Source of the DNA: an uncultured Hyphomicrobiales bacterium
GTDB taxonomy: Bacteria; Pseudomonadota; Alphaproteobacteria; Rhizobiales; Aestuariivirgaceae
Assembly (NCBI GenBank): GCA_903951595.1
Contig: CAJBCQ010000178.1
Location: 1-36,096 of the forward strand
Direction of reading: 5' to 3'
Length of the DNA: 36,096 bases
The stretch's first letter is position 1. The number at the start of each line of letters is the position of its first letter. A program made the position numbers and the translations under genes. Positions 1,686 through 14,348 of this stretch are shown here, piece after piece. The notes under the pieces were generated by a model. That model was given only the letters and a program-made list of their open reading frames with translations, was not told the origin of the DNA and did no database searches.

Positions 1686-2336
1686 ATGTCTTACGTTGTA
1701 TTTTCGCCTGTAGAAGTCGTCCAACCGGCAAGGGCGGTTCCGGGTATTCCCGCCCTGTTGCAGCGCGGACTGGAAAAGATCCTCGCGCTTGTCCTGCTTA
1801 TGGTGGCAAGCCCGGTGATAGTGGCGGCAGCCATTGCGATCCGCTTGGACACGGCTGGGCCAGTGTTGTTCCGGCAAGAACGGCATGGCCTTGGCGGGCG
1901 CATTATCCGCATTTACAAATTCCGCACCATGCGCGTGGTCGAGCCCGGATCTAGCGCGCAGCAGGCGGTGCCGGGGGATGCGCGTGTGACGCGGGTGGGG
2001 CGTTTTCTGCGTGCGAGCAGCATTGATGAGCTGCCACAGCTTTTGAATGTGCTGACTGGTGACATGGCGCTGGTGGGCCCGCGCCCGCACCCCATCATGC
2101 TCGACAAACAATTCAGCCCCCTCATCGCCGGCTATATGGCGCGTTATGGCGTGAGGCCGGGCATTACGGGGCTTGCGCAGGTGAAGGGCCATCGCGGCCC
2201 CACACCGGATGTGGAAACCATGCGCCAGCGCGTGGCGGCGGATGTGGAATATGCACGGCGCAAGAGCCTGGCGCTGGATGCGTGGATTTTGGCGCGCACG
2301 GTGCCTGCGGTGCTAGGGGCCAAGAATGCGCTTTGA
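1686..2336 (+). CDS. polyprenyl-phosphate sugar-1-phosphate transferase (initiating transferase)
   Basis: The 216-residue product belongs to the bacterial sugar transferase family (PF02397; ExoY/WcaJ/HfsE-like). It would transfer a sugar-1-phosphate from a nucleotide sugar to undecaprenyl phosphate at the inner membrane, the first step of a lipid-linked repeat unit. Seen in the sequence: one hydrophobic segment at about residues 32-52, a YKFRTM motif near 77-82, the catalytic Asp-Glu pair in [13 protein letters not shown] (D114, E115), and the GPRP signature near 131-134. The length fits the short single-segment class without the CoA-binding-like N-terminal domain. The ATG at 1686 follows GGAG at 1677-1680. 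It is the first gene of the plus-strand arm, preceded by a CtrA-like box, and overlaps the next gene by 11 bases. Sugar specificity cannot be read from the sequence. Confidence 0.92.
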
Positions 2337-5620: not shown

Positions 5621-6841
5621 TCAACCCCCATAGCTTCCAGATAAGCCAGAATTTGCGACCCTCGGTGAACCAATGATAAGAAACAGCAGAAGGGCCAGAC
5701 AGACAGAGAACCCAAACCACGCTTCAACAAAGTTGCTCACTGAGTAGATGATAATGATTCCCAATGTTTCTGTACGGCCGAAACGACTCCAGACTTCACG
5801 AAGTAATTTTCTCAATATCGTCGTCACAAATATAGCGAGCGAGCCGATCCCTCCTGCTAGCGCGATTGTTATATAGCCGTTGTGAGTTGATCGCAGATTG
5901 CTCCAGATTGTTGCTTGCGCCACAGCAACATAGTCGCCGTAGATTACCGTTGATCCATACCCCCAGCCCAGCCAAGGCCGCTGCATGACAAGTGGCATAA
6001 AGAAATTCCAAATCAGGGTTCTGCCGCTGAAGGTGGAATCGCGGCCCAGAAGGCCGAAGATGCCTTCTTCTGAGTGCGTTATGAAAAAGATGCCCAGTGA
6101 TGCAATGAAGATGGTGAGCAGACTCAAAATGATCGTGGGCAGTCTCCCTCTGGCCGCAACCAGCAGGCAAACTGGAAGGGCAATCAACACAGCGCCCAAT
6201 GCGGTTGAGCTTTCCGCGTTCACAAGCACCAAGGCTGCCAGCGCCACATCCAGCGCCCGCCGCGCGGGGTGCGCATAGCCGGGCAGGAAAAGCGCCAAGA
6301 TAAAGAAATAAGCGGCGAATGCGCCAAGTTGGTTCTTGTGCAGGAAAAGCCCACGCCAGCGGCCCAGATGATCGCCAGCCATCAAGCCATATTGCGGCAG
6401 CAGCAGCGAAACCATTATGGAGCCGTAAAGCGTCCACCGCATCAGCCGGGCGATGAACGCCACGCCATCAAAGCTAAGTGAGCGTATTGTCATGCAGGCA
6501 CACAGGAAGGCCAGCATCATTGGCAGGAAGGTAAGGGATGACGTTCGCCAGTTTATCAAGGTTGAAATGGCAACAAGGCACCAGATACCGAGGAAGGCTT
6601 TGTCTTCCCAGCGTATGCTTGAAGTGGCCTGCCGCCAGTTCAGGGTAAAAAGAAGGGAGCAGGCCAAAAAACCAGCATAGCGGATGGGTTGCTCAAATGG
6701 CTTGATGATCTCCAGGCTCATTTGGCTATCGATGGGATAAAGACCAATCTCGGCCACCCATATATAAACAAGCAGGATCAGCAGCTTTTCAAAACGTTTG
6801 CGACTGAGCAAGACTGGTGCTTGGCTTTTGGCAACCGTCAT
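5621..6841 (-). CDS. Wzy-type polysaccharide polymerase / O-antigen ligase family membrane protein
   Basis: The 406-residue product is very hydrophobic, with about ten membrane segments. It carries O-antigen ligase/polymerase (Wzy_C-like) signatures: WRGLFLHKNQLG near 162-173, FSGRTLIW near 271-278, and in the large periplasmic loop RPWLGWGYG (288-296) followed by STHNGY with H320. Proteins of this family join lipid-linked repeat units in the periplasm, or ligate polymer to an acceptor. Its place directly downstream of the flippase favours a polymerase. The ATG at 6839-6841 overlaps the flippase stop as ATGA; a start at 6952 would read through a Gly-rich shadow stretch and was rejected. A second family member is at 13062-14348. 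Confidence 0.85.
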   Translation of the reverse strand: MTVAKSQAPVLLSRKRFEKLLILLVYIWVAEIGLYPIDSQMSLEIIKPFEQPIRYAGFLACSLLFTLNWRQATSSIRWEDKAFLGIWCLVAISTLINWRTSSLTFLPMMLAFLCACMTIRSLSFDGVAFIARLMRWTLYGSIMVSLLLPQYGLMAGDHLGRWRGLFLHKNQLGAFAAYFFILALFLPGYAHPARRALDVALAALVLVNAESSTALGAVLIALPVCLLVAARGRLPTIILSLLTIFIASLGIFFITHSEEGIFGLLGRDSTFSGRTLIWNFFMPLVMQRPWLGWGYGSTVIYGDYVAVAQATIWSNLRSTHNGYITIALAGGIGSLAIFVTTILRKLLREVWSRFGRTETLGIIIIYSVSNFVEAWFGFSVCLALLLFLIIGSPRVANSGLSGSYGG

Positions 6842-8073
6842 GCGCGCACCGCCAAGGCGAACCGGGGCCAAGCCACCAACCCCCAAGCCAATCCAGCCCC
6901 CAGCCCCGCCACCGCAATCAGCCCGGCCCACAGAGTATCCGGACCCAAACACTGCACCACTGCCACCATCGCCCCCGCCTGCGCGAAGGCCAGAATGATA
7001 TTCATGGTGATGCGCGCCCTCTGCCGGTCCACGCCGTTCAGCATGTCGCTTCCTACATAGAAAAGCCCAGTCAGCAGCACCACGGGGCTTGCCGCGCGCA
7101 GGAAGGTGATGATGGGGGCATAGTCGGGTCCGAAGATTTCATCCGACAAGGGAACCAGCGCCCATAGCAGTGCTATTTCCAAAAGGGCGACCAGCGTCAT
7201 CCATTGCAGAACATGGCGGGCCAGACGGGGAAGCTTTTCCGGCGCGTGGTGACCATATTCGAAATAGCGCGGAATATAACGGCGCGAGACAATCTGCAGC
7301 GGAATGAAGGTCACTTGCAGGGCGCGCGTGGCGACCGAATAAAGCGCCAAGGCCGCAGGCGGCAACAGCAGTGCCAGTACAAAACGGTCTGCCGAGTTCT
7401 GGCAGGCGCGCAAGGTGGCGTTGACGGTGAAGTAAAGGCTGCCGCGTATATCTCGGGGCCAGCACAATAAGGGCGTGCCATGGCGGGCAAAGCACCAAGC
7501 CATCGCCAGGCTCGCAAAGCACAAGGCACCCCCTGCCCCCGCCAACGCGCAAATCCAGGCATCGGCCCCTTGCAGCAGCGCCCATGTGAGCGCCAGTGCG
7601 GCTAGCCGGCTCATGGCGCCACCGGTACGCACCAAATCTGCCCGATGCACCTCACCGCGCGCCAATGCGACGGACTCGGCAATGGCAAGGCCGCGCTGGG
7701 CGGTCAATTCGATTACCGCCAACGACATCAGCGGACCCAGCGCGCCATGGTCTGGGAAAAGCTGCATCAACCCCACATAAAGTCCGACAACCGCAGGCAG
7801 GGTGAGAACGGAAAGGGCAAGCGCGCTGCCCATCCATTCGCGCGTTTCATGCGGGCTTCGCGCAATGCCGCGCAGGGCTGCTTCATGACCACCAAGGCCT
7901 GCCACGGCACCCAGCATCGGCAGCAAGGCGGTGAGAGTGAAATAAGCTCCCATTTGCGTGATCGACAACGTGCGCGACAGCACGATCAAGGTGCCAAATT
8001 GCGCCACGGGGCCGAGCATCAAGGTGGCAAGGCTGCCGGTGAAGCCGACAAATGAGAGGCTTTTGTGGCTCAT
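6838..8073 (-). CDS. Wzx-like polysaccharide flippase (MOP superfamily)
   Basis: The 411-residue product has about 12 predicted membrane segments and the look of a polysaccharide biosynthesis/Wzx flippase (PF01943/PF13440 type): an N-terminal segment with conserved Gly and Gln (GPVAQFGTLIVLSRTLS), a helix with GAYFTL, and the loop Gly-Gly-His-Glu-Ala near 59-63. It would translocate the undecaprenyl-diphosphate-linked repeat unit to the periplasmic face. The ATG at 8071-8073 has GAGG about 9 bases upstream. It is the first gene of the flippase-polymerase-GT2 block and is divergent from the BTLCP gene. Assignment to Wzx is by fold pattern and context, since the family has little sequence conservation. 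Confidence 0.83.
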   Translation of the reverse strand: MSHKSLSFVGFTGSLATLMLGPVAQFGTLIVLSRTLSITQMGAYFTLTALLPMLGAVAGLGGHEAALRGIARSPHETREWMGSALALSVLTLPAVVGLYVGLMQLFPDHGALGPLMSLAVIELTAQRGLAIAESVALARGEVHRADLVRTGGAMSRLAALALTWALLQGADAWICALAGAGGALCFASLAMAWCFARHGTPLLCWPRDIRGSLYFTVNATLRACQNSADRFVLALLLPPAALALYSVATRALQVTFIPLQIVSRRYIPRYFEYGHHAPEKLPRLARHVLQWMTLVALLEIALLWALVPLSDEIFGPDYAPIITFLRAASPVVLLTGLFYVGSDMLNGVDRQRARITMNIILAFAQAGAMVAVVQCLGPDTLWAGLIAVAGLGAGLAWGLVAWPRFALAVRA

Positions 8074-8167
8074 GCGGCAAGCCTCAAAATTGGCAAGTTA
8101 TTTACTAAACTTTGCCGCAACGGCAGATTGCCTAAATTTGTTTGCTTTCTGGTTTGCTGCGGCAAAG
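8073..8167. repeat. three copies of TGCGGCAA/TTGCCGCA in the flippase-BTLCP divergent region
   Basis: TGCGGCAA occurs at 8073-8080 and again inside TGCGGCAAAG at 8158-8167. The exact reverse complement of the latter, CTTTGCCGCA, is at 8110-8119. The 10-base inverted repeat has a 38-base spacer, and the region also holds a small hairpin TGCCG-CAA-CGGCA (8113-8125). The repeats sit between the divergent starts 8073 and 8217, so they could be operators for one or both genes. The first copy overlaps the flippase start codon. No regulator is known to me for this motif. Confidence 0.4.
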
Positions 8168-8216
8168 GAACCTGAGTGCATGTTGTCTGTACCAACCTGC
8201 AAAGGAAATATTCGCC

Positions 8217-8858
8217 GTGGCCATTAAACGGATCATGATTGCCGCTTTCACTTTTGCGGTCGCGCAGTCGGCTTTTCTGGTAAAATCCGCTAGCGCATCT
8301 CCGTTTACGGGTGCGAGCCGGTTGAAGGGCGAGTTGTCCGTCAAGCCGGGGCATACGCTGCGGCAACGCTTGCCTGCCATTAAGAAGCGGTTTGCGCTGC
8401 CGCCCATTGCGTTTGTGAATTTCTGCAGGCGCAAGACGGACCAATGTGCGGTGCGGCAGGGCAAATTGGCCGTGCGCGATGGCGTTGTCATCGCTACACC
8501 AGCGGTGCTTTCCAGCCTGATCAGCATCAACACGCAGGTCAACAAAACCATTCGCAGTCAGTCCGACGGCCCCCGACAGGATGTCTGGGAGGTGAATGTG
8601 ATGGCAGGTGATTGTGAGGATTACGTGTTGACCAAGCGTGCCCAATTGCTGGCCAAGGGCTGGCCATCCTCGGCACTTGCGATTGCGGTCGTCTATACGC
8701 CCAAGCGCATTGGCCATGCCGTGCTGGTGGCGCGAACGGATGCGGGGGAATTTGTGCTCGACAATCTGCGCGGCGAAATCATCACGCGTGAAAAAAGCGA
8801 TTACCACTTTATTTCTATGCAGGATGGCTCGCGCCGGTTGGGCTGGGTGGCGTTGTAA
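8217..8858 (+). CDS. periplasmic transglutaminase-like cysteine peptidase (BTLCP, DUF920)
   Basis: The product is 213 residues from GTG at 8217, chosen because AAAGGAA (8201-8207) lies 9 bases upstream and the next residues form a clean signal peptide (AIKRIMIAAFTFAVAQ..., probable cleavage after SASA near residue 28). An ATG at 8142 would add 25 atypical residues. Seen: the BTLCP catalytic triad in order, Cys133 in GDCEDYVLTKR, His167 in IGHAVL and Asp182 in VLDNLRGE, the hallmark of PF06035/COG3672. The best-known relative is LapG, a periplasmic protease that releases a cell-surface adhesin; other members have no known substrate. The gene stands alone on the plus strand between two minus-strand blocks, two bases from the convergent stop of the unknown gene at 8861. 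A role in surface attachment is plausible but inferred. Confidence 0.88.
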   Translation: MAIKRIMIAAFTFAVAQSAFLVKSASASPFTGASRLKGELSVKPGHTLRQRLPAIKKRFALPPIAFVNFCRRKTDQCAVRQGKLAVRDGVVIATPAVLSSLISINTQVNKTIRSQSDGPRQDVWEVNVMAGDCEDYVLTKRAQLLAKGWPSSALAIAVVYTPKRIGHAVLVARTDAGEFVLDNLRGEIITREKSDYHFISMQDGSRRLGWVAL

Positions 8859-9598: not shown

Positions 9599-11726
9599 GA
9601 TGGCCATAGCCGTAGCCATAGCCCATGCCCAGCAAGCTGTGGGCAGCGTTGAGAACCGGCACAAGGCGGATCCCTTCCGAATCCATCGTCAACTCCCGCA
9701 TAGCCGCCATAACGCCGCGTTGATTGGCATGGCCGCTACGCACCACAAAAACCACCGTATCGGCGAGCTTGGTGATGATGCGCGCATCCACCACGCGGCC
9801 GATTGGGGGTGTATCAATGATGACGAAATCATATTTTTCACGGCAATGGCGGATCAGATCGGCAAATTGCTGAGAGCCAACCAGAACATCACTGCCCCAG
9901 CTGCCGCCAACTTCACTGGATAGAACCTCAAGACCCGAACCGGTTTCGCGCAGGATGGAACCGGCGATGTCATTGGCTGTCATGCTCGACAATAATAGTC
10001 GGTTCAGGGTGCGGCCGCTGGAGAGGCCGAGAATGCGGGTCAGGCCAGGCTGGCGGAAATCCGCATCTACCAGAATGGTGCGGCGGCCATTGGAGGCCCA
10101 GCTACGAGCGAGCGACAGCGATAGTGTCGATTTACCTTCACTTTCCGCGCTGGAGGTGAGCAGCACAACCTGACCATCGCCACGGCGCGGGGCAACCATT
10201 TCCACATTCACGCGCACGCGGCGGATGGATTCAGCATAAACCGAAAGAGGATCCATGAGGACCAGTTCTTCCGGGCTTTCCGCCTCGCGCGGCACCACCG
10301 CGCCCACGCGCATTCCGGTTACGGATTCAAACTGCTCGTCCGACAGGAAGCCGCCGAATAGATGGTCACGCAACAGGGCGGCGGCAACACCAAAGCCCAA
10401 AGCCATCATCGCGCCCAGTGCCAGAATGGCAAAGCGTGGCGGATAGCTGGATTCTGCTGGGGTGATGGCGGGTGCGACGACGCGCGCATTGGGCAAGGCC
10501 AGACCGATCTGCTGCTGCACGGCACCCAGACGGGTTGTGTAGCTTTCATAAAGGGCGCGACTATTTTCGGATTTGCGCTGCAGGCGATACAGATCAACGG
10601 CAACTTCATTCGGAATGGATTGCTGGGCGAAAAGCTCTTGCAGGGATTTTCGTAAAGATGCCGTGCGGGTGTCGGTTTGGTTGCGCTGTGTGGTGAGTTC
10701 ACCAATGCGGCTTGATGTGATTGCGTTAAGTTTCTCGTCGATCACCCGGATTTGCTCGGCCGCGTCGGTGGCTGATAGCTGCGCGTTGGCTTGGGCTGCC
10801 GCCTCAGCGCGCCGCTCCAGCAAATTACGCACATCGGCGGGCAGGTCAACGGCGGGGAACACACCTTGGCTTGCCGATTCAAGGCCGGCAATGAGGTTGG
10901 TGATCTCTTGCTTGCCGCCTTCGATTTCCTCGATCTGCAGGCGCAGGGCGTTGATGGCTTCGCGGGCCTCTGGGGTGCCGATCTTGCCGCTTTGTTCCAG
11001 AATGAAGGCGTCAATCTCAGCATCAAAGGAACTGAGGTCGCTGGCCAAGCCATCGACGCGCTGCTGTAGGAAGGAGGCGGCGCGCTGGGCGCTTTGGACA
11101 CGCGCTTCCACCTGCAGGTCGATATAGGCATCACTGACCGAATTGGCGATCTCGGCTGCCTTTTGGGGTGATTTGCTGACCGCACTGACCGCCAGAACGC
11201 TGGTCAGGCCGCGACGGCGAATGCGAAGAGATTCGTCCAGAGTGGTCACAAGGCGGGCGCGGATTTCCGCAGGCAGTTGGGAAATGTCCGTCACTTCATC
11301 ATAAGCCAGTGTATTCACCGGTGTGGATGCAATGAGGTTCCGCAGTTTTTCGAGCGTTCCAGGCGCAATGCCAAATTCATCATCGCGCCACAGTCGCAGC
11401 CGCTGGGCAGCGGAGAGAAGCACGGCGCTGGAGCCCAACACTTCGGCTTCCGTTTCGATGCGATTGTTGAGATTCGAGGCCTGTTCAGGCGTGTCATCCA
11501 GCCCCACAAGGCGGGCTTCGCTTTCATCCACCACGATGAGCGCGGTGGCCGTGTAGCGGGTGTCAAGTTGGCTGATAATTCCCACAATCACCAACATGAT
11601 GAGTGTGGCAGTGAGCAGCACCAGCATGGAATGGCGCAGCAATGTGCCGATGAGGATGCGTAATTCTAGGCCTGCCGCGCGGGCTTGGGGAACATCGCCT
11701 GCCCCGGATAAATCCGAAGCGTTCAT
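9555..11726 (-). CDS. Wzz/BY-kinase: polysaccharide co-polymerase with tyrosine autokinase domain
   Basis: The 723-residue inner-membrane protein is of the Wzc/ExoP type. It has a Wzz domain with a first membrane segment at about 33-52, a long coiled-coil periplasmic region rich in Q/A/E (about 190-400), a second segment starting at PPRFAILALG, and a cytoplasmic bacterial tyrosine kinase domain. That domain has Walker A SSAESEGKST (K532), Walker A' ILVDADFRQP (D554, D556) and Walker B FVIIDTPP (D638). The C-terminus has a short tyrosine cluster GYGYGYG (Y703, Y705, Y707), the likely autophosphorylation sites. Such proteins set chain length and drive export with an outer-membrane channel. The ATG overlaps the upstream phosphatase stop as ATGA (11723-11726). 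Kinase and co-polymerase are fused, as usual in Gram-negatives. Confidence 0.93.
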   Translation of the reverse strand: MNASDLSGAGDVPQARAAGLELRILIGTLLRHSMLVLLTATLIMLVIVGIISQLDTRYTATALIVVDESEARLVGLDDTPEQASNLNNRIETEAEVLGSSAVLLSAAQRLRLWRDDEFGIAPGTLEKLRNLIASTPVNTLAYDEVTDISQLPAEIRARLVTTLDESLRIRRRGLTSVLAVSAVSKSPQKAAEIANSVSDAYIDLQVEARVQSAQRAASFLQQRVDGLASDLSSFDAEIDAFILEQSGKIGTPEAREAINALRLQIEEIEGGKQEITNLIAGLESASQGVFPAVDLPADVRNLLERRAEAAAQANAQLSATDAAEQIRVIDEKLNAITSSRIGELTTQRNQTDTRTASLRKSLQELFAQQSIPNEVAVDLYRLQRKSENSRALYESYTTRLGAVQQQIGLALPNARVVAPAITPAESSYPPRFAILALGAMMALGFGVAAALLRDHLFGGFLSDEQFESVTGMRVGAVVPREAESPEELVLMDPLSVYAESIRRVRVNVEMVAPRRGDGQVVLLTSSAESEGKSTLSLSLARSWASNGRRTILVDADFRQPGLTRILGLSSGRTLNRLLLSSMTANDIAGSILRETGSGLEVLSSEVGGSWGSDVLVGSQQFADLIRHCREKYDFVIIDTPPIGRVVDARIITKLADTVVFVVRSGHANQRGVMAAMRELTMDSEGIRLVPVLNAAHSLLGMGYGYGYGHHAEKKTDAAVKKAS

Positions 11727-12565
11727 TTTCTGGCTTCCAGAAAGCGGCAGGTATTATGTTCAAGCACGGCGGCGGTGAGCCTGCCGGTTGCATAGGCACC
11801 GGTATCCACGCCGATGCGGTATTTTGCGACTAAAGGCTCCGCCATGGTTTGATGCCCATGCACGATCACTTTCTCAAAGCCATGATCGCCATTGGTGAAA
11901 TCGTCTCGGATCCAGAGCAGGTCTTTTTCCTTCTGGTCAGCCAGCGCAACGCTTGGCCGGGCACCGGCATGGCAGAAGAAATAATCGCCCAGCGTGAAGG
12001 AGGTTTTGAGTTCAGTCAGAAAGCCGAAATGCGACATGGGCATGCAGCGCGCCAGAGCCTTGCGGGCCAAGCGCATTCCTTCCGGTGTTCCGTCTGGCGG
12101 TGCGATTTTGTAGGAGCGCAGGGTTTGATCCCCGCCATTGGCCATCCAGGCTGGGCCGAAGCGTTCAGGCTGTTCCATGAAACGTTGGAGCATATCTTCA
12201 TGATTGCCGCGCAAGGCCACGGTTTCGATGCCCGATAGGCTTAAGGCAGACAGGATGGACAAGACGCCCGCACTGTCGGGACCGCGATCCACATAATCGC
12301 CGCACAGCACAATAATGTTGCGCTGCGTTTCGCCTTCAGGCGTTCGCGCTGCATCGTCACAAATCTCATTCAGCATGTTGAGCAACAAGGATGACATGCC
12401 GTGAATATCGCCCACGGCATAAATGCGCGTGGAAGGCGGAAGGTAGGCTGAACCCGTTTCGCAAAGCCGGGCAGCGGGTGGCTGCTGAGAGCGCATATTC
12501 GCGGATTCGCGAACCCACCTAGTCCAGGGCTGCGGTAAGCGCCAGCCAGACGAATCAAAAAACAT
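11723..12565 (-). CDS. PPP-family metallophosphoesterase (Ser/Thr protein phosphatase type)
   Basis: The product is 280 residues from ATG 12565. All PPP signature motifs are present in order: GDIHG (52-56), GDYVDRG (89-95), RGNHED (119-124), HAG (199-201) and VHGHQ (235-239), together providing the two-metal site. Related enzymes (lambda phosphatase, PrpA/PrpB, ApaH) hydrolyse phosphoserine, phosphothreonine, phosphotyrosine or dinucleoside polyphosphates; the substrate here is unknown. The stop overlaps the BY-kinase start as ATGA, so the two proteins are made together, and dephosphorylation of the kinase's tyrosine tail is an attractive inference. Start uncertain: a GTG at 12601 and an ATG at 12496 are also in frame; 12565 has GGTGG about 9 bases upstream. 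Confidence 0.88.
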   Translation of the reverse strand: MFFDSSGWRLPQPWTRWVRESANMRSQQPPAARLCETGSAYLPPSTRIYAVGDIHGMSSLLLNMLNEICDDAARTPEGETQRNIIVLCGDYVDRGPDSAGVLSILSALSLSGIETVALRGNHEDMLQRFMEQPERFGPAWMANGGDQTLRSYKIAPPDGTPEGMRLARKALARCMPMSHFGFLTELKTSFTLGDYFFCHAGARPSVALADQKEKDLLWIRDDFTNGDHGFEKVIVHGHQTMAEPLVAKYRIGVDTGAYATGRLTAAVLEHNTCRFLEARK

Positions 12566-12584
12566 GCGGTTTTGCCACCATGAC

Positions 12585-12637
12585 TTGCAAATTAACTGCA
12601 CATACTATTGACAGTTGCAACGCATATCAAGTACTTT
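12585..12637 (+). promoter_or_regulatory. candidate promoter and TTGCAA palindromes before the small secreted protein
   Basis: TTGACA at 12608-12613 is a perfect -35 hexamer; TACTTT at 12632-12637 could be a weak -10 with an 18-base spacer. The 8-base palindrome GTTGCAAC (12614-12621) touches the -35, and a second TTGCAA is at 12585-12590, 30 bases (about three helical turns) upstream, so an operator pair is possible. The region is shared with the divergent phosphatase-kinase arm. Assignment is by eye only. Confidence 0.35.
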
Positions 12638-12665: not shown

Positions 12666-13073
12666 ATGAAAAAAGTCATTTTCGCTACAGTCTTTGCGGC
12701 CATCATGGGGCTTCACGCTTTGCCGGCAACAGCGGCCACGCGCGCGGAAATTGCTGCAGACCTCGTTGCTGCATGCTCTGGCGGTGGCGATTGCGCGGCC
12801 GCTGTGAATGCAGCCATCGCGCTTGCCACCACGCCGGATTTGTCGGTCGTCATCGGCCAAGGGCTTGCTGATGCCGTGGCGATGGTCGGTGACATCGACC
12901 CTGAGCTTGCCACCCTGATGCTGACATTGATCGCTGCGGCACCTGCGGATGTGCAAACGGCCTATCAGATCGCGGTTGACGTTTCGACGGCGGCTATTGG
13001 ATCGACACCGGTTCCCCCTGCACCTGCCACGCCTGATGTGCCCGCAAACACCGATGCTGGTTCACCGGGCTGA
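12666..13073 (+). CDS. small secreted Ala-rich protein of unknown function
   Basis: The product is 135 residues and I do not recognise it. Seen: a textbook signal peptide (MKKVIFATVFAAIMGLHALP..., cleavage likely after ATA at about residue 23); a helical alanine-rich mature part with two cysteines (C37, C43) in SGGGDC context that could form a disulfide; three short amphipathic helices; and a Pro/Ala-rich C-terminal tail from about 112. The ATG follows CGGGGA (12655-12660). It is monocistronic on the plus strand, divergent from the phosphatase-kinase arm, and its last 12 bases overlap convergently with the O-antigen ligase-family gene. Location suggests a periplasmic or exported accessory of polysaccharide production, but nothing in the sequence gives a function. 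Confidence 0.75.
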   Translation: MKKVIFATVFAAIMGLHALPATAATRAEIAADLVAACSGGGDCAAAVNAAIALATTPDLSVVIGQGLADAVAMVGDIDPELATLMLTLIAAAPADVQTAYQIAVDVSTAAIGSTPVPPAPATPDVPANTDAGSPG

Positions 13074-14348
13074 AGCATTTTGCGTTTTGTCGGCTGACGC
13101 GCCGACTGCAAGGCCGCAGAGGATGGTGATGGTGAGCGCCACGGCCTGCGTTTGTAGGGCAAAGTCAACGCTGGCATGCAATGCCAGCGTGAGGCTTGAG
13201 GCCAGTGCGGCTTCGGCAACCAAGCCATTGCCTGCTTGGCGGCGGCGCAACAGCGCGATCCAGATTCCGACGCAGGCGATGGTCAACCCGGCTGCCATCG
13301 GCAAGCCCAAGGTCGCTGCCGCTTCCAGATAAAGCGAATGGGCATTCTGCCAGACATATTCACTGCTGGTTTGCGGCTGGTGATAAAGCGGCTGGACCGA
13401 TTGGAACGCCCCTGCCCCGTGGCCCAGCCAAGGCCGATCGGCAATGGCGGCGATGGTTTCCTGATAGAGGCTGAAGCGCGAAGCGTTGCTGGCGATGCTG
13501 TCATCAGCGCGCATCATCAAGGCTGAAGCGGCAAGCGTGATAGCAGGGGCCGCGAAGGCTGCGATCATCACGCCACCCCAAGCCCCTGCCCGCGAATGGC
13601 GTATCCGCAGGAAGGCGAGCCAGCTCAGGCCCACCAGCGCGCTCACAATACCTGCCCGCGATCCGGTCAACAGAAGTGCCGGCAGAAGCAACATGGCGCA
13701 GATGGCCGCTATCACGCGGGCGCGATTGGCTTTCTCGCCGGGGGTGGTGAGGATGCTGGTGCAGATGATGAGGCCCACGGCAAAATAGGCCGCCGCCGAA
13801 TTGCGGCTGACAAATGTGCCCGTGACCCAGCCGATATAGGCCTGCTTGGGCAGCAGGCCCAGTGTCGGCAATTGCAGTTGCTCCACCAGCATGCCGAAAG
13901 TGGCAATGATGGCTCCTGTCACGGCGATCGTCAGCAAAGCCGTGCGGGTGAAGGCCGGGTTTTCGGCACCGGCGCGCATGGCGGGAAAGAAGATGGCAAG
14001 CGTTAGCCACCAGCCCAGCGTCGCCCAGCCTGCCGCTGGTGCAAGGCTGATGGCACCGGGCGCATCCGGAATGAGTTGCCAGACAGGATGATGCCAGCTT
14101 TGGGGTGTGAAGGACACGCATTGCAGCGACATCCACACTGCACCCAAGCCCAAAACTGCCGCCACCGCCCAGAAAATCGGATCACGCCAGACAAGCGGCG
14201 CGCGGTATTCGCGAAGGCCAAAGGCGATGAGGGCAAAAGCGGTGATCAGCCCGTTCAACGCCCAGAAGATGGGCCGGTTGGCACCCAGCAAAAGGGGCGG
14301 CAGGACGAGCAAGAGCCAGAGGCAGGCAAGTAGAAAAGCTTTAATCAT
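13062..14348 (-). CDS. second O-antigen ligase / Wzy-family membrane protein
   Basis: The 428-residue product has about 11-12 membrane segments. Wzy_C/WaaL family marks: FVSRNSAAAYFA near 179-190, TGSRAG with R231, and a large periplasmic loop with a RFSLYQETIAAI segment (R291), RPWLGHGAGAF (305-315) and NAHSLYLE with H337. These arginine and histidine positions are the ones conserved in ligases and polymerases. The protein could be a second polymerase (as HfsC and HfsI in Caulobacter) or ligate the chain to an anchor; sequence does not decide. It begins at ATG 14348 in a 79-base divergent region shared with the UDP-glucuronate decarboxylase, and its 3' end overlaps the small secreted protein gene by 12 bases. 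Confidence 0.87.
   Translation of the reverse strand: MIKAFLLACLWLLLVLPPLLLGANRPIFWALNGLITAFALIAFGLREYRAPLVWRDPIFWAVAAVLGLGAVWMSLQCVSFTPQSWHHPVWQLIPDAPGAISLAPAAGWATLGWWLTLAIFFPAMRAGAENPAFTRTALLTIAVTGAIIATFGMLVEQLQLPTLGLLPKQAYIGWVTGTFVSRNSAAAYFAVGLIICTSILTTPGEKANRARVIAAICAMLLLPALLLTGSRAGIVSALVGLSWLAFLRIRHSRAGAWGGVMIAAFAAPAITLAASALMMRADDSIASNASRFSLYQETIAAIADRPWLGHGAGAFQSVQPLYHQPQTSSEYVWQNAHSLYLEAAATLGLPMAAGLTIACVGIWIALLRRRQAGNGLVAEAALASSLTLALHASVDFALQTQAVALTITILCGLAVGASADKTQNASAR

Follow-up and report, generated by a model that had tools for sequence, protein, structure and literature searches.

The stretch of DNA analyzed here (hereafter, the window) is one entire contig of 36,096 nt (CAJBCQ010000178.1) from an uncultured Hyphomicrobiales bacterium, whose genome assembly (GCA_903951595.1) comprises 2.7 Mb in 264 contigs. 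It carries a polysaccharide-type locus with genes for an initiating sugar transferase, a WecG-type transferase, family 2 glycosyltransferases, and two Wzy_C proteins. The subject of this study is a two-gene unit within this locus, in which the gene for a PPP-type metallophosphatase directly precedes, and overlaps, the gene for a bacterial tyrosine kinase (BY-kinase) (Table 1). A preliminary description had proposed that this phosphatase, by means of a different fold, serves the kinase switch that is normally operated by a low-molecular-weight tyrosine phosphatase (LMW-PTP) of the Wzb type or by a PHP-type phosphatase such as CpsB/YwqE.

The features on which that proposal was built, namely, the complete metal motifs of the phosphatase, the ATGA overlap between the two genes, and the kinase tyrosines Y703, Y705, and Y707, were all found as described. 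The open reading frame of the phosphatase gene (11723-12601, minus strand) opens with GTG and has an in-frame ATG at 12565; the product of 11723-12565 contains GDIHG, GDYVDRG, and RGNHED as well as the two later histidine positions (in FCHAG and VHGHQ). Across an 84-row alignment of PPP sequences, D53, H55, D90, H122, H199, and H238 are invariant, and N121 is conserved in at least 90%. The Pfam family Metallophos matches the protein with 58.1 bits (cut-off 21.5) and is its sole Pfam match at an E value of 0.001, with no match to the LMW-PTP family LMWPc. With respect to NCBIfam equivalog models, the protein scores far under the cut-offs for ApaH (39.6 of 176 bits) and PrpE (41 of 340 bits), and also under those for PRK11439 (46.2 of 326 bits) and PRK09968 (35.8 of 332 bits), which we take to represent PrpA and PrpB of Escherichia coli. 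An identity as Ap4A hydrolase was rejected on the low ApaH and PrpE scores, which leave such an activity as such possible.

The kinase motifs, identified by eye because automated Walker A and B patterns gave no match on them, are SSAESEGKST (Walker A), ILVDADFR (A'), and FVIIDTPP (B). The protein matches TIGR01007 with 104.3 bits (E value 6.2e-30), just below the curated cut-off of 108.05. A Shine-Dalgarno-like GGAAG lies within the phosphatase gene, 7 nt ahead of the kinase ATG, which is compatible with, yet no proof of, translational coupling of the two genes. Upstream of the unit is a sigma70-like promoter match, one of five such sites in the region as compared with 1.6 expected from shuffled sequences; the putative phosphatase start at ATG 12565 would be compatible with this site (12630-12602).

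Table 1. The phosphatase/kinase unit and further features of the surrounding locus (positions in the window)
Feature	Position	Strand	Basis or remark
PPP-type metallophosphatase	11723..12565	minus	280 aa from ATG 12565; GTG start at 12601 possible
BY-kinase: Wzz/GNVR periplasmic part plus cytosolic tyrosine kinase, 723 aa	9555..11726	minus	profile matches, motifs
ATGA overlap: phosphatase TGA stop plus kinase ATG start	11723..11726	minus	sequence
GGAAG, Shine-Dalgarno-like stretch for kinase	11734..11738	minus	sequence; putative function
C-terminal tyrosine cluster codons Y703/Y705/Y707	9606..9620	minus	kinase sequence
Sigma70-like promoter match TTGATA-17-TAGTAT	12602..12630	minus	ahead of two-gene unit; consensus match only
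Initiating sugar-phosphate transferase (Bac_transf)	1686..2336	plus	PF02397, 198 bits
Wzy-type O-antigen ligase/polymerase	5621..6952	minus	PF04932, 53.1 bits
Possible Wzx-like flippase	6838..8073	minus	PF01943, 24.1 bits, under cut-off 28.2
HvyA-like transglutaminase/cysteine protease (BTLCP)	8142..8858	plus	PF06035, 147.1 bits
Second Wzy_C O-antigen ligase/polymerase	13062..14348	minus	PF04932, 79.7 bits

A second BY-kinase is encoded in the same genome (contig C118; G000:C118, examined as locus L054), again with a PPP of the same family, here 555 bp downstream; it has ten tyrosines at positions 747 to 770, as compared with three in the cluster of the window kinase. No Wzb-type phosphatase turned up elsewhere in this genome, whose appearance would have spoken against the preliminary description: searches of the whole assembly with LMW-PTP (PF01451), CpsB (PF19567), and Y_phosphatase3 (PF13350) all came back empty. 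PF01451 domains are nearly universal in the host order (141/150 genomes), so their absence here is unusual rather than typical; this is the only one of 80 kinase-bearing genomes surveyed that lacks a match. The PHP family (PF02811) has two matches only, both in open frames of >1,000 aa and hence, judging by size, presumably in DNA polymerase III alpha-type proteins. There is, however, an ORF of 167 aa with a Cys-based motif (HCWAGVSRS) on contig C18 (L212:1396-1899), which resembles dual-specificity phosphatases (DSPs) while scoring below the PF00782 cut-off. As a separate observation, a 730-aa protein encoded on contig C6 (L169:6623-8815) has a C-terminal part 27% identical to the window kinase over residues 531-689; with no visible GKS/T Walker A motif and no Pfam family matched, it may be a pseudokinase.

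For a view across the order, we searched 150 genomes (own genome included) of at least 90% completeness for BY-kinases, LMW-PTPs, PPPs, and CpsB, and called a phosphatase linked when located within 15 kb of a kinase. The kinases retained, among the matches listed, score about 60 bits or higher and have open frames of 440 aa or longer; LMW-PTPs were recorded from about 57.5 bits upward in genomes with a listed kinase. The resulting 119 kinases from 80 genomes leave out G179:C45 (eligible, no linked phosphatase) and G114:C1 (403 aa, PPP at 2 kb). A PPP is linked to 30 of them, CpsB-type PHP phosphatases to 14, LMW-PTPs to 2, and none of these to the remaining 73; not a single kinase is linked to two phosphatase kinds, so that none of the 30 also has an LMW-PTP or CpsB within 15 kb. 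The adjacency noted in the window thus recurs, being seen in 27/150 genomes with 15 family codes. Since random placement would yield only ∼1.1 PPP links (genomes of 4.5 Mb assumed), chance adjacency can be rejected, although both are genes of polysaccharide loci to begin with. PPPs and kinases are also associated at the level of genomes (both, 57; PPP only, 23; kinase only, 23; neither, 47; p = 3.5e-6).

A tree of 59 kinase domains, trimmed with uniform cuts (L151 and L157 were left out because the Walker A' pattern missed them), indicates that the class of phosphatase goes with the lineage of the kinase. All 14 CpsB-linked kinases fall into one clade of 17 rows (SH-aLRT 98), the other three of which are unlinked, and the two LMW-linked kinases form a clade of their own (SH-aLRT 100). 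The window kinase belongs to a clade of 11 rows (SH-aLRT 99), eight of which have a PPP upstream at -4 to 301 bp and three of which have none in the stretch retrieved; the remaining PPP-linked kinases are spread over further groups. Grouping the PPP-linked kinases into an exclusive clade is rejected (p-AU 1.3e-56), which is no surprise given the unlinked sisters among them. In the two LMW-linked loci (L150 and L152), the LMW-PTP gene occupies the slot upstream of the kinase, at 29 and 27 bp. We had considered a swap in this slot, with an LMW-PTP or a PPP in the same position on one kinase within one genus; given the separate clade, it is whole kinase/phosphatase units that differ, not the phosphatase alone. 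In a quick tree of the PPPs, the window protein groups with relatives from Caulobacter and Hyphomonadaceae (SH-aLRT 94). The data did not reject a tree constrained to unite it with the PPPs that accompany its kinase clade (p-AU 0.68, at a higher likelihood; p-AU 0.38 with a wider set), so the PPP tree is compatible with either place for the window PPP, with or without co-descent with the kinase.

We then looked at gene order around the PPP in 109 loci: the window itself, 28 loci taken from the own genome and the relatives searched, and 80 taken from named genomes. Only 62 of them extend at least 8 kb to either side of the PPP, and two contigs are counted twice (as L043/L133 and L040/L116). A search for the PPP family found it in 24/60 genomes (own included), a few matches being weak. 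Genes found within 8 kb of the PPP encode a BY-kinase (34 loci), Wza (33), a BBP2_2 barrel (21), a sugar transferase (19), Wzy_C (17), and BTLCP (12, one contig twice), and 49/109 loci have one or more of these, BTLCP left aside. The order PPP, Wza, BBP2_2, BY-kinase on a single strand recurs in 11 loci (one contig twice). When a gap of up to 120 bp is taken as direct adjacency, there are 13 adjacent PPP/BY-kinase pairs, -4 to 100 bp apart, in which the PPP gene lies upstream (8), downstream on the same strand (2), or convergently (3); only the window pair overlaps. The convergent pairs, from three genomes, lie tail to tail at a distance of 34 to 61 bp (L162:5416-8695, L163:6323-9512, and L164:4834-8028). 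Another locus (L159:7270-15002) encodes a second, related PPP close to an additional Wzz-like stretch, which looks like a duplication of the pair. A fusion of the two proteins was not seen, as none of the ORFs in these loci matched the PPP model and the kinase model together.

As for the fold, an AlphaFold2 model of the window PPP based on the 84 alignment rows has a mean pLDDT of 91.5. Its top match in VIA-align 2 is RLPH2 of Arabidopsis (5VJV; Z 24.5, root-mean-square deviation 2.4, 218 residues aligned), followed by PnkP (Z 22.8), the putative Ap4A phosphatase 2QJC (21.5), lambda phosphatase (21.1), and ApaH (20.2); a cold-active tyrosine phosphatase from Shewanella reaches 19.4. Other methods ranked these differently, with lambda phosphatase first in Foldseek and RLPH2 behind it and 2QJC, and with RLPH2 fourth in a sequence profile search (76 bits, after 83.2, 82.5, and 79.1). 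RLPH2, presented in passages of PMC12817480 as a plant tyrosine phosphatase of the PPP family, is like the window protein a PPP enzyme and by VIA-align 2 the closest solved fold; unlike it, RLPH2 acts on MAP kinases of plants, and identity in the structural alignment is 24%. Its activity means that the PPP fold can serve phosphotyrosine, while saying nothing on the window PPP itself.

BY-kinases control the length of capsule and slime polymers, and in the accepted model they do so through cycles of phosphorylation and dephosphorylation. Wzb dephosphorylates Wzc, as CpsB does for CpsD, and this cycling of the kinase supports polymer assembly. The E. coli wzb gene lies just upstream of that of its BY-kinase, an arrangement like that of the window, although Wzb as an LMW-PTP differs from the PPP in both fold and catalytic chemistry. 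CpsB/YwqE is, like the window PPP, a metal-dependent phosphatase encoded near a BY-kinase (14 pairs in our survey). It differs from it in having the PHP fold and in lying 0.7 to 2.1 kb upstream of the kinase, in 13/14 cases on the same strand.

A closer precedent comes from Caulobacter, where CCNA_00167 has been called a Wzb-like metallophosphatase, clustered with the Wzc-like CCNA_00163, and where, in the passages concerned, its deletion is reported to give heavy, non-capsulated cells (eLife 2014, PMC4241560). The Caulobacter capsule locus combines a metallophosphatase, a BY-kinase, and HvyA, as does the window with its HvyA-like protein; it also has Wza, for which there was no Poly_export match among the window ORFs scanned. 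The window PPP differs further in overlapping its kinase directly, unlike CCNA_00167 and CCNA_00163. We place CCNA_00167 in the family of the window PPP solely by synteny with Caulobacter sp. Root655 (L126), where a PPP of this family lies in the order BBP2_2, BYK, Wzy, sugar transferase, BTLCP, PPP, Wza. In the open-licence literature, PMC4241560 was the only paper we found in which a tyrosine autokinase and a metallophosphatase appear together.

The window also encodes a BTLCP protein and, divergently from the PPP/BY-kinase unit, a 135-aa ORF (12666-13073, plus strand) without Pfam match whose N terminus looks by eye like a signal peptide. In Caulobacter, HvyA likewise belongs to the capsule cluster, and the presence of a BTLCP gene near the PPP (12/109 loci, at up to 8 kb) suggests that a capsule-restricting factor travels with the PPP/BY-kinase pair.

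The pairing of PPP and BY-kinase is recurrent and probably functional, and of the possible targets the BY-kinase is the likeliest. Whether the window PPP is the cognate phosphatase of the adjoining kinase in a Wzx/Wzy-type capsule or exopolysaccharide (EPS) locus we regard as an even bet, supported by the overlapping stop and start codons, the location of both BY-kinases of this genome beside a PPP, and the tyrosine clusters. The linkage counts and kinase clades of the survey, RLPH2 as top VIA-align 2 match, and the capsule phenotype of the CCNA_00167 deletion also speak for it. In such a scenario, the two proteins would be made together, the kinase would phosphorylate its own C-terminal tyrosine cluster, and the two-metal center of the PPP would strip the phosphates off again, letting the kinase cycle between the states needed for polymer assembly, as with Wzb/Wzc and CpsB/CpsD. 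The proposed service of the kinase switch by a different fold thus gains from the linkage in 27 genomes, from the lack of kinases with two phosphatase classes, and from the absence of a Wzb match; an exclusive role is called into question by the DSP-like protein of contig C18, which could serve as tyrosine phosphatase instead, and by the location of only 32/110 PPPs within 15 kb of a listed kinase.

These last two points are among several that weigh against the PPP as the cognate kinase phosphatase. The 73 kinases without a linked phosphatase of the three classes make up the majority of the 119, and the other 78/110 PPPs lie away from any listed kinase, making other PPP roles likely; 23/80 genomes with a PPP have no kinase that passes the filter, and 60/109 PPP loci lack all five polysaccharide families within 8 kb, although that distance is covered to both sides in only 62 of them all. 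The lack of overlap between phosphatase classes has a hypergeometric p of 0.0066, which overstates independence because the kinases of each class are related. Genome-level mutual exclusion between PPP and LMW-PTP was not found: LMW-PTPs of at least 84 bits occur in 31/57 kinase genomes with a PPP versus 10/23 without (Fisher p = 0.46), and in 10/27 genomes with a linked PPP versus 31/53 others (p = 0.098). The close succession of PnkP, 2QJC, lambda phosphatase, and ApaH behind RLPH2 means that the fold does not fix the substrate, and no report of a PPP tested on a BY-kinase was found in the open-licence literature. Finally, for PssZ of Rhizobium leguminosarum, a PPP of 263 aa encoded in an EPS cluster and needed for EPS production, the partners proposed in the relevant passages are Ser/Thr kinases and regulators (PMC6071215 and PMC6628131).

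PssZ leads to the alternative that the window PPP does belong to the polysaccharide machine as a protein phosphatase but acts on Ser/Thr residues of another component, be it a sugar transferase, a glycosyltransferase, or a regulator, instead of the kinase. As far as these passages go, PssZ is like the window PPP in size and in its polysaccharide cluster, and high-molecular-weight EPS in a pssZ mutant is down to 1.09% of the wild-type amount (PMC6071215 and PMC6628131); pssZ is, in contrast, a single-gene unit beside exo5. One relative in the set (L056) carries the motif variants reported for PssZ, SDVHG and GNHD. PssP is not named as a PssZ substrate in the PssZ passages, and the word "tyrosine" is absent from the main text of the 2019 paper (PMC6628131). 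The best Foldseek match being a Ser/Thr phosphatase, that of lambda, fits such a role, as do several PPP loci with polysaccharide genes and no kinase in the fetched stretch. However, the 13 directly adjacent pairs and the absence of kinases with two phosphatase classes point to the kinase itself as the target, and we consider a Ser/Thr substrate elsewhere in the machine somewhat unlikely, if a serious contender.

Two other explanations appear weaker still. Were the PPP to hydrolyze a small molecule (an Ap4A-type dinucleotide, a nucleotide sugar, or another phosphoester) and reside in the locus for metabolic reasons, the weak matches to the ApaH and PrpE models and the structural similarity to ApaH would be accounted for; yet those scores are far under their cut-offs, and the top structure is a protein phosphatase, if by a small margin over PnkP and 2QJC, which renders this explanation quite improbable. 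We give even less credence to the PPP being a general cytosolic phosphatase that sits beside the kinase by chance while another enzyme, for example, the DSP-like protein, serves the kinase. The presence of that ORF and the many PPPs distant from a listed kinase would agree with it, but 30 linked kinases against ∼1.1 expected, together with the second kinase of this genome being likewise beside a PPP, would not.

Taken further, the survey and trees allow the tentative proposal, which we hold to be somewhat less than an even bet, that such PPPs join LMW-PTP and PHP enzymes as a third class of phosphatase dedicated to BY-kinases, arisen by convergence, and as the commonest gene-linked one in the order, in which a PPP lineage would have turned to phosphotyrosine to switch capsule or EPS assembly. 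The Wzb-like proposal for Caulobacter CCNA_00167, as worded in the passages of PMC4241560, is already in print and is extended here. New are the numbers on linkage, the division of the kinases among three phosphatase classes, and their clade structure, as well as a genome with a PPP beside both of its BY-kinases, no Wzb or CpsB match, and one DSP-like ORF as alternative.

Should PPPs take the place of Wzb or CpsB in many members of this order, it becomes directly testable which enzyme resets their kinases. The phenotypes described in print for CCNA_00167 and PssZ could then share one mechanism, and there would be bacterial PPPs acting on a tyrosine kinase, comparable with RLPH2 of plants.

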